Position numbers and translations under genes: made by a program. DNA of 53,391 nucleotides from Halothiobacillus sp. (GTDB lineage Bacteria; Pseudomonadota; Gammaproteobacteria; JAAZVP01): contig JAAZVP010000014.1 in assembly GCA_018623495.1 (NCBI GenBank), positions 1-53,391 of the forward strand, read 5' to 3'. The notes under the pieces were generated by a model. It was not told the DNA's origin. It saw nothing but the letters and a program-made list of their open reading frames with translations, and ran no database searches. Shown one piece after another: positions 38,691-51,500 of the stretch (its first letter is position 1; every line of letters begins with the position of its first letter).

Positions 38691-38835
38691 TCCGTTTCTC
38701 CCTTTTGGTTGTGAAACGTAGTCGAGCCTAGCACAGGCCAAGGCGGGCCTCACAAGTCCTGCCGCCCACGTGCAATGGGGTCCATATGACGCTAGGGTTA
38801 CGGGAAACCAAAAGAACAAGCGGGGCCCTGTCCTC

Positions 38836-48882: not shown

Positions 48883-50319
48883 TTATTCGCCGGTCGACAG
48901 GTCGGTGTCGACGATGAACAGCCGGTTGCCGTCGATGGTGCTGGCGTCGAGCATCTTCTGCTCCAGGTCACCGTCGGTGGACCAGGTGGCGAAGTCGTCG
49001 TCGTTGAGCACGCCCAGGCGGTGCTCGTCGATCACCCACAGGCCTTCCATCTTGTCGTGCGGGTAGTTGACCTCGGCGACCATGTCCACCTGCAGGGTCT
49101 TGGCCACCGGTTCGATGCCGGCGGCGGCCAGCGCGGCCCAGCCCTCGTCCATGGCCACCTGTTCGAGGGTCCTGCCGTCGATGGTCAGGCCCAGGTCGGG
49201 GTCCTGGGCGAGGTTGCCGCCCGCGGGGACGGCCTCGAGGTTGGTGGCGCCGGAGAGATCGACGCGGTAGACGTGCTTCTGCGCCTCGGGGCTTGCGCCC
49301 GCGGCGCCGTCGGGACCGCCGTAGAGGAAGCTGCCGTCCCGCTCGATCACCAGGAACTCGGTGGCGGAGAGGGCCACGATCTCGGAGTTGGCGTTCTGGT
49401 TCTTCTCCTGGCGGTACAGGTACTGGCCGATCTCGCCGGTTTCCAGGTCCACGGTGACGATGCGGGTGAGGTCGAGGTCCTTCACCGACTTGTCCGGGTT
49501 GTACATGGTGGACTGCATGATGCCCACCAGGGTGGTCTCGTCGGGGGTGATCGCCAGGCCTTCCATGCCGCGGTTGGCGCGGCGGTTGGCGTATTCCTTG
49601 GGCAGCGTGATGGACACCCGGGCATCACCGGCGAAGGGGTTGATGCGGTCGATCTCGGTGCCGTCGGCATCGAAGTGGACGATGTGGGGCCCGTACTCGT
49701 CGCTCACCCAGAAGCTGCCGTCGGTCAGCGCCACCAGGCCCTCGCCGTCCAGGCCGTAGTCGTCCAGGCGGAAGGGGTTGCTGGCCGCGTCCCAGGGCTG
49801 CGAGGGATCCTCGGTGATGGGCTGGCCGTTGGCGAAGTAGGGCGTCTCGCCGGTGCCGCCCAGGCCGTCGGAATTGGGCAGGCCGGTGATGGGTGTGCCG
49901 TCCGGGCGCTTGAGCAGGATGGTCTCCACCTGGGTGATCCGGCCGTTCTCGCCCAGCTCGAACCGGCCGATGCGCGGGGTGTAGTCCGGTACGGGGAACT
50001 TCTTGCCCGAGCCGTGGGAGGCGCCCATGCTGGTCTTGTACTTGGCATTCGGGCCCCGGTCGGTGAGGGCGTAGAACTGTGTGGCGTTCTCCGGGTGCGC
50101 GGTCATGGCCGAGCCGTAGCCGCCGTTGCGCACCTCGAAGGTCTGGCCGGTCTTGGCGTCCACCAGGTCGTCGCGCAGTACCGAGTAGGGCAGGAAGGTG
50201 CCGCCGGCCGGGAAGCTGGAGAACACCGCGCTGGTGTCGGTGCCGGAATCGTCGTCACCGCCGCAGGCGACCAGGGTAGCGGAGGCCAGCAGGCCGAGCA
50301 GGAGGGATTTCTTGTTCAT
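48883..50319 (-). CDS. Phytase-family esterase-like lipoprotein (PF13449)
   Basis: A 478-residue protein with a lipobox (LVACG) followed by an Asp/Gly-rich linker, then the esterase-like activity of phytase domain: LPYSVLRDDLVDAKTGQTFE, VRNGGYGSAMTAHPEN, FYALTDRGPNAKYK, DGEGLVALTDGSFWVSDEYG, RGMEGLAITPDETTL, HDKMEGLWVIDEHRLGVLND. It is a beta-propeller-like secreted protein predicted to be anchored outside the cytoplasm. Substrates of this family are not settled; phosphate ester hydrolysis is the usual proposal. It lies 66 bases downstream of the CYTH-like gene and ends at a terminator, so the two form one unit. Confidence 0.87.
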   Translation of the reverse strand: MNKKSLLLGLLASATLVACGGDDDSGTDTSAVFSSFPAGGTFLPYSVLRDDLVDAKTGQTFEVRNGGYGSAMTAHPENATQFYALTDRGPNAKYKTSMGASHGSGKKFPVPDYTPRIGRFELGENGRITQVETILLKRPDGTPITGLPNSDGLGGTGETPYFANGQPITEDPSQPWDAASNPFRLDDYGLDGEGLVALTDGSFWVSDEYGPHIVHFDADGTEIDRINPFAGDARVSITLPKEYANRRANRGMEGLAITPDETTLVGIMQSTMYNPDKSVKDLDLTRIVTVDLETGEIGQYLYRQEKNQNANSEIVALSATEFLVIERDGSFLYGGPDGAAGASPEAQKHVYRVDLSGATNLEAVPAGGNLAQDPDLGLTIDGRTLEQVAMDEGWAALAAAGIEPVAKTLQVDMVAEVNYPHDKMEGLWVIDEHRLGVLNDDDFATWSTDGDLEQKMLDASTIDGNRLFIVDTDLSTGE

Positions 50320-50385: not shown

Positions 50386-51261
50386 TCAGTCCTGGCAGAA
50401 GGCCGTGTCGAATTCGTAGACGAACCGGGTCTTGGTCCGGGAATCGGGGTCGATCCATTCGGTGAGGGTCTGCAGGGCGCGGAAGGTCGTCCTGGCGCGC
50501 TGGACGACCTTCCGGGTGTAGTCCGCCGAGCCGTCCTCGTACTTGAACGAGATCTCGGCGACGAGCGGCGCCTGCCCGCTGGCGGGCGTGCCCGGGTACC
50601 AGAGCGTCACGTCGATCCCGGCATCGTGCTGGCCGAGGTCGATTTCCACGCCGCTGTAGACGTGCTCGCGGATGTCGAGGTTGCCGACCACGGCCAGGGG
50701 CAGGTCGTCGTCGAGGTCGTGGTCGCGCTCGAAGTCGGGAAAGTGTTCGTTGATGTCGTGGACTTCGTTGATGTTGCGGGTGTTGGGCGCCTTGGTGGAA
50801 TGGCCGTAGACCACCCGGAAGTCGGTGTGGGCGTTGGCGCCGATGTCCGCTTCCAGCTTGGTCTCGGCACCGGCGGTGTCCGAGTCCAGGTCCTCGAAGT
50901 CGGCGATGTAGCGATCGGGGCTGCGGAACTTGAGGCTCACCTCGGAATCGCCGTTCTCCACCCGTTCGCGGAACGAATAGCCCAGGCCGCGGAGTCGGCA
51001 GGTCCCGGGGGTGTCGAAGTAGCGGACGTCGCGTTGCTTGTCCAGCACGGGCGAACCGGAGACATCGCGGTCGATGGCCTGCTCGATCGCGGTCTCCGCG
51101 TCCTGGAGCAGCGCGGCCACGGTGGCCGCCTCCGTGGCGTGGGTGAAGCGCGCCGGATCGAGCATGAGCTTGTATTCCCGGGAGGTGACATCCGGGTTGG
51201 CGATGGCGGGGGCGCTCACCAGGCAGGCGAGGAGGGGCAGAAACCATCTGGCGGTCGGCAT
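50386..51261 (-). CDS. Secreted CYTH/triphosphate-tunnel-like protein
   Basis: A 291-residue protein with a signal peptide (cleavage after AIA21) and a mature N-terminus containing R28-E29-Y-K31. The order of motifs fits a triphosphate tunnel metalloenzyme fold: EYK, DVRYFDTPGTCRLRGLGYSF, RERVENGDSEVSLKFRSPD, GVEIDLGQHDAGIDV, LVAEISFKYE, and a C-terminal RFVYEF strand. CYTH enzymes act on tripolyphosphate, thiamine triphosphate or inorganic polyphosphate; an exported version is unusual. Activity is unproven because the classical ExExK is reduced. It is probably co-transcribed with the phytase-like gene and has a PhoB-box-like array 59 bases before its start. Confidence 0.72.
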   Translation of the reverse strand: MPTARWFLPLLACLVSAPAIANPDVTSREYKLMLDPARFTHATEAATVAALLQDAETAIEQAIDRDVSGSPVLDKQRDVRYFDTPGTCRLRGLGYSFRERVENGDSEVSLKFRSPDRYIADFEDLDSDTAGAETKLEADIGANAHTDFRVVYGHSTKAPNTRNINEVHDINEHFPDFERDHDLDDDLPLAVVGNLDIREHVYSGVEIDLGQHDAGIDVTLWYPGTPASGQAPLVAEISFKYEDGSADYTRKVVQRARTTFRALQTLTEWIDPDSRTKTRFVYEFDTAFCQD

Positions 51262-51319
51262 GTCCAGTTCCCTTGATCAGTTCGGGGTATTCCGTTGCCG
51301 CGAGAGGTTAGTGCGGGAA

Positions 51320-51370
51320 GATGACGAAACGCTGATGGTTTCGTGAACGGCGCGTGATGATCGCGTGACG
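51320..51370 (-). promoter_or_regulatory. PhoB-box-like array: five heptamers at 11-bp spacing
   Basis: Five TGA cores occur at 51322, 51333, 51344, 51355 and 51366, exactly 11 bases apart, inside the heptamers GATGACG, GCTGATG, CGTGAAC, CGTGATG and CGTGACG. On the minus strand these read as TCA-containing heptamers (such as CGTCACG and CGTCATC) separated by 4 bases, the geometry of Pho boxes (CTGTCAT repeats). The array lies upstream of the minus-strand CYTH-like gene; TAACCT nine bases beyond its last box could be the -10. Confidence 0.5.
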
Positions 51371-51500
51371 CGCCCGGTGGCCGGTCGAGACCGGCAGCCC
51401 CCGGGCCTGCCCGCCGGCGGTTTCGGCAAGACGCCACCACGGCCGATGCGGTAGCCTCGTGCGCTGATCGTCACCAACCGGAAAAGGGACTACAGGCACC

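Follow-up and report, generated by a model that had tools for sequence, protein, structure and literature searches.

Organization of the locus and of the intergenic array

The window analysed here (the whole 53,391-nucleotide stretch of Halothiobacillus DNA) carries two adjacent minus-strand genes for proteins of an exported type, preceded by an array of five short direct repeats and a -10-like hexamer. From the most distal repeat to the second gene, the features are:

51365–51371, minus strand: putative Pho half-site unit 5, the most distal, GCGTCAC; in the 11-bp register
51354–51360, minus strand: putative Pho half-site unit 4, TCATCAC; in the 11-bp register
51343–51349, minus strand: putative Pho half-site unit 3, CGTTCAC; in the 11-bp register, and like the CGTTCAT of the genome's own phoB promoter
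51332–51338, minus strand: putative Pho half-site unit 2, CCATCAG; jointly with unit 1 the matrix site of 12.5–12.9 bits
51321–51327, minus strand: putative Pho half-site unit 1, start-proximal and in the -35 place, TCGTCAT; aligns with GCGTCAT, CTGTCAT or TCGTCAT of the orthologues
51305–51310, minus strand: -10-like hexamer TAACCT, N10 after unit 1; the form TAnnnT is common to nearly all boxed orthologue promoters and E. coli phoA
50386–51261, minus strand: first gene of the putative operon, for a 291-aa protein predicted to be exported and to have the triphosphate-tunnel (CYTH/TTM) fold (open reading frame, structure model, Foldseek)
48883–50319, minus strand: second gene, for a lipoprotein-like 478-aa protein predicted to be exported; PF13449 ("esterase-like activity of phytase"), Pfam E 9.6e-49

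The TGA triplets (TCA on the gene strand) lie at 51322, 51333, 51344, 51355 and 51366 of the plus strand; every step is 11 bp, and these positions bear out the five TGA-centred heptamers at exact 11-bp intervals of the preliminary description. Since both genes are on the minus strand, the array, which spans 51321–51371, is read in the gene sense on that strand: GCGTCAC-GCGA-TCATCAC-GCGC-CGTTCAC-GAAA-CCATCAG-CGTT-TCGTCAT-CTTCCCGCAC-TAACCT, with 43 bases more to the ATG of the CYTH-like gene, 60 bases before which the start-proximal unit starts. A Pho box consists of two 11-nt units, in each of which seven bases are conserved and four less so (PMC4415409). Measured against a definition of at least two such 7+4 direct repeats, the array has five in exact register; the kind of operator is known, and what goes beyond the minimal two units is their number here. 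Moreover, unit 1 replaces the -35 element and stands 10 bp ahead of the -10, an arrangement with TAACCT that the preliminary description had missed, although it was right about the 7+4 geometry. In a structural model, the Pho repeat likewise overlaps the -35 region, with PhoB touching sigma (PMC3348028). TAACCT is a weak -10 and, as had been remarked, the match to CTGTCAT is loose: from distal to proximal the heptamers share 4/7, 3/7, 4/7, 4/7 and 5/7 bases with it, only the TCA core being invariant within the array.

Such an array is hardly to be expected by chance. In the 2.46-Mb genome there is exactly one five-fold array of TGA at 11-bp steps, the one upstream of the CYTH-like gene, while the TGA frequency of the window predicts about 0.0004 five-fold and 0.04 four-fold arrays per genome. 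In none of 20,000 dinucleotide-shuffled versions of the 239-bp intergenic region did four or more TGA fall in 11-bp register (the maximum was three), nor did any of 2,000 shuffles contain a run of five of any trinucleotide at any spacing from 7 to 15.

The Pho boxes of E. coli pstS, phoA and phoB have the same construction as the array, i.e. 7+4 direct repeats in which N10 separates the heptamer nearest the start from a -10 hexamer (in K-12, CTGTCAT-AAAG-TTGTCAC-N10-TATAGT for phoA and TTTTCAT-AAAT-CTGTCAT-N10-CATAAT for phoB), and at pstS, too, several units share one register. The Halothiobacillus array differs from them in its looser heptamers around the TCA core, its GC-rich spacers and its five consecutive units. 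The PhoP units of Streptomyces (GTTCACC core) are also 11 nt long and vary in number, forming simple or complex operators (PMC4415409), and unit 3 of the array reads CGTTCAC. However, Streptomyces PhoP belongs to another phylum, whereas the array fits the CTGTCAT-type matrix of E. coli and gammaproteobacterial promoters.

Matrix scores and the candidate regulator

The position weight matrix was derived, with weighting by genus, from orthologue promoters only; the Halothiobacillus window and all known Pho genes were left out. The training sites had initially been chosen, within 400 bp, by their resemblance to CTGTCAT, and some selection is therefore inherent in the matrix. Scored against shuffled controls, as had been proposed, the array site stands far above them: at 12.5–12.9 bits it is the top site of its own upstream region, and a site as good occurs in 5/5000 shuffles of 200 bp and 11/5000 of 300 bp. 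It ranks second in the whole 53-kb window, and most orthologue sites score higher. The heptamers of the orthologues (e.g. GCGTCAT, CTGTCAT) are nearer CTGTCAT than those of the array. When each genus was left out in turn, the true site came top in 14 of 15 cases, with 0–1/500 shuffles as good; the exception was Salinivibrio, where an overlapping out-of-register site was picked (23/500 shuffles). The same matrix recovers boxes that were not in the training set: those of E. coli phoA, phoB and pstS (0/1000 shuffles each) and, in the Halothiobacillus genome itself, those of phoB and phoU (0/1000), pstS (3/1000) and, more weakly, pstC (7/1000). A strict pattern, TCAY-N7-TCAY-N10-TAnnnT, gave five matches genome-wide and one control match; it misses the array site because unit 2 ends in CAG, and the matrix was used instead.

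With respect to the regulator, the genome encodes one PhoB above the curated cut-off, followed by a PhoR above its own. This PhoB is 65% identical to that of E. coli, and the segment YVE-RTVDVHI-RLRKAL of its DNA-binding domain is nearly unchanged. Several regulators of the OmpR family bind direct repeats with an 11-bp pitch, and a single further full-length OmpR-type regulator, PmrA/QseB-like, was found in the genome; it might occupy the array in place of PhoB. We consider this very unlikely: the matrix that scores the array independently finds the E. coli PhoB boxes and the genome's own phoB, phoU and pstS promoters, and the gene downstream belongs to a phosphate-scavenging class.

Other Pho-box-like sites in the genome

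Elsewhere in the window, a candidate box on the minus strand at 38770–38803 (CCGTAAC-CCTA-GCGTCAT-N10-TTGCAC) reaches 13.6 bits, slightly above the array site, and lies a short way upstream of a gene for a TRAP (DctP-type) solute-binding lipoprotein. The only other four-fold array of the genome (locus L019, G000 contig C28, about 1488–1553) reads CGGTCAG-CGAA-GCGTCAT-CGGC-CGGTCAT-CGGC-GGGTCAC-N10-GAGAAT; it is upstream of a family-2-like glycosyltransferase, 10 bp before the -10-like hexamer. At L050 (G000 contig C70, 1476–1531), four in-register units followed by N10-TAGCCT have a polyphosphate-kinase-2-like gene on one side and, on the other, a family-4 glycosyltransferase similar to glycolipid synthases, and lipid remodelling is possibly a part of the Pho regulon here. 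In L023 (G000 contig C61), the cluster around a second pstS-like gene includes a TonB-dependent receptor and a 360-aa exported protein that has no Pfam match, and the box ATGTCAC-CCGC-GGGTGAC-GCCG-TTGTAAC-N10-TAGGCT precedes another exported protein. Finally, pstS and phoU are divergent in L022 (G000 contig C110, 4994–5250), with one Pho box directed toward each.

Conservation of the promoter and of the gene pair

In one scan of the genome collection, relatives of the CYTH-like protein turned up at 21 loci; at 20 of these the identity is 55–68%. The block heptamer-N4-heptamer-N10-(-10) lies ahead of the CYTH-like gene in 15 of the 20 orthologous loci, and is found in Marinobacter, Alcanivorax/Alloalcanivorax, Salinisphaera, Zhongshania, Salinivibrio, Oceanobacter, Hydrocarboniphaga and one Mariprofundaceae MAG. 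Three examples are:

Salinisphaera promoter: CGGTCAT-CAAC-GCGTCAT-N10-TAGAAT
Oceanobacter promoter: CTGTCAC-CATA-GCGTCAT-N10-TATCCT
Hydrocarboniphaga promoter: TCTTCAT-GAGC-GCGTCAT-N10-TAGCGT

The box-N10-(-10) layout and the phasing in 11-bp steps, whose comparison between orthologues had been suggested as a check, are both kept in at least eight genera, among them distant relatives. In Marinobacter and Salinivibrio further upstream units are in register (GTGTCAT, TGATCAT, TCGTCAT, a degenerate unit, then CTGTCAT or TTGTCAT), and multi-unit arrays are consequently not confined to the Halothiobacillus window. A count at units -1 to -4 of 12 non-redundant promoters gave 20 TCA triplets in the register phase, as against 0–3 in any one of the ten others. 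The Salinivibrio locus (L037) is strikingly like that of Marinobacter in its CYTH-like gene, phytase-like gene and promoter alike, which suggests horizontal transfer.

The phytase-like gene adjoins the CYTH-like gene in 17 of the 20 loci: downstream in 12, upstream in four (Pseudoalteromonas/Catenovulum) and divergently in the Mariprofundaceae MAG, where it is only 35% identical. A box directly ahead of the CYTH-like gene is absent from five of the 20 loci, and in four of these five the phytase-like gene comes first. At three of the four phytase-first loci the phytase-like gene is preceded by a weaker box (TCGTCAT or TCGTCAC-N10-TACCnT, at equal distance; 2–10/1000 shuffles); scored by the matrix, the Catenovulum locus gave no convincing one. 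Among the loci examined, the Nitrosomonas MAG shows no convincing box and a distant actinobacterial relative shows none.

A PhoB site might also be present and act as a repressor, or be silent, rather than activate the CYTH-like operon; in E. coli many genomic PhoB sites are reported to be transcriptionally inert (PMC10294691). The inert sites are described there as intragenic, however, and the spacing from array to -10 is the activating one and is conserved, which makes this reading highly improbable. That the array, situated between the CYTH-like gene and the divergent hsdM (51501, plus strand), serves the latter or, TGA/TCA triplets being common, is a chance or leftover repeat is scarcely credible and largely refuted by its conservation at the orthologues: the orthologous loci examined lack hsdM, those with the box included, no scoring box is directed at hsdM, which was rejected as the target, and 0.0004 such arrays are expected per genome.

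The two exported proteins

The preliminary description took both proteins to be secreted, and on inspection both look exported, the CYTH-like protein with a signal-peptide-like N-terminus and the phytase-like protein with a lipobox-like one. As to the phytase family, the latter protein scores 167 bits for PF13449, against a Pfam gathering cut-off of 27.6. A PF13449-type gene of Nodularia is strongly induced under phosphate limitation (PMC9846622); a literature search joining Marinobacter, PhoB and phytase found no paper.

For the first gene, the label "CYTH-like" stands as regards the fold, but not as regards sequence families, since Pfam, NCBIfam and PDB sequence searches gave no match. The model (pLDDT 82) has as its best Foldseek match the inorganic triphosphatase YgiF of E. 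coli with tripolyphosphate (E 1.7e-6), and 18 of the 19 matches with E<=0.001 are CYTH/TTM-type chains. The TM-scores are modest (0.3–0.5 by query length, up to 0.47), and the CYTH/TTM call is accordingly a fold assignment and not a functional one. Profile comparison with YgiF is weakly informative (E 0.036, a single 32-column stretch); in this weak alignment Arg98 and Lys111, invariant in 21 of 21 relatives, are paired with YgiF Arg56 and Lys69, which have roles in catalysis or substrate binding.

The protein shares its fold with the enzymes YgiF and SaTTM, but differs from them in its predicted signal peptide, in the lack of any Pfam or NCBIfam match and in its motifs. ExExK, the N-terminal hallmark of CYTH/TTM proteins (PMC8233210), was not found in the family, all 21 sequences having an invariant SREYK (SxExK) instead, and the probable ExE position reads E-I-S, also invariant. 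Provided that ExExK and ExE are correctly placed, two ligand positions for the second metal would appear to be serine (Ser27 and Ser238), in which case catalysis may be altered or lost. A literature search at title and abstract level found no described exported CYTH/TTM member.

A probable PhoB-dependent promoter for phosphate scavenging

The uniqueness of the array, its N10-(-10) geometry, its conservation at the orthologues, the matrix matches to known Pho boxes and the presence of PhoB and PhoR together lead us to read it as a PhoB operator and promoter. On this sequence evidence we hold with high confidence that its five 11-bp direct-repeat units would make up an extended Pho box, at which PhoB activates the adjoining sigma70-type promoter of the CYTH-like/phytase-like operon. 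The earlier proposal of a PhoB-like array ahead of both genes thus gains support from the orthologues, the matrix and the phoB and phoR genes, and the two genes very probably belong to the phosphate-scavenging programme.

When phosphate is scarce, PhoR would phosphorylate PhoB, and phosphorylated PhoB would line up head to tail on the direct repeats; the start-proximal unit would take the -35 place, where PhoB would contact sigma, and RNA polymerase would start from the TAACCT -10 element. From this arrangement we infer PhoB binding, induction at low phosphate, a transcription start (predicted some 6–8 nt past TAACCT, close to 51298) and co-transcription of the two genes as one operon, the exported TTM-fold protein first and the phytase-like lipoprotein second. 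As to the inferred enzyme activities, both proteins would probably free phosphate from phosphate compounds in the periplasm or outside the cell. How growth on external polyphosphate works has been described as largely unknown (PMC13318637). We would give even chances to the bolder proposal that the CYTH-like gene founds an unrecognised exported triphosphate-tunnel family for PhoB-controlled phosphate scavenging, acting on external tri- or polyphosphate or nucleotides with a rebuilt metal site (two acidic ligands being invariant serines), in tandem with the phytase-like lipoprotein.

The operator itself is ordinary in kind. It would turn two uncharacterised exported genes into testable candidates for phosphate scavenging across marine and saline gammaproteobacteria, and it suggests that the triphosphate-tunnel fold has an exported branch.
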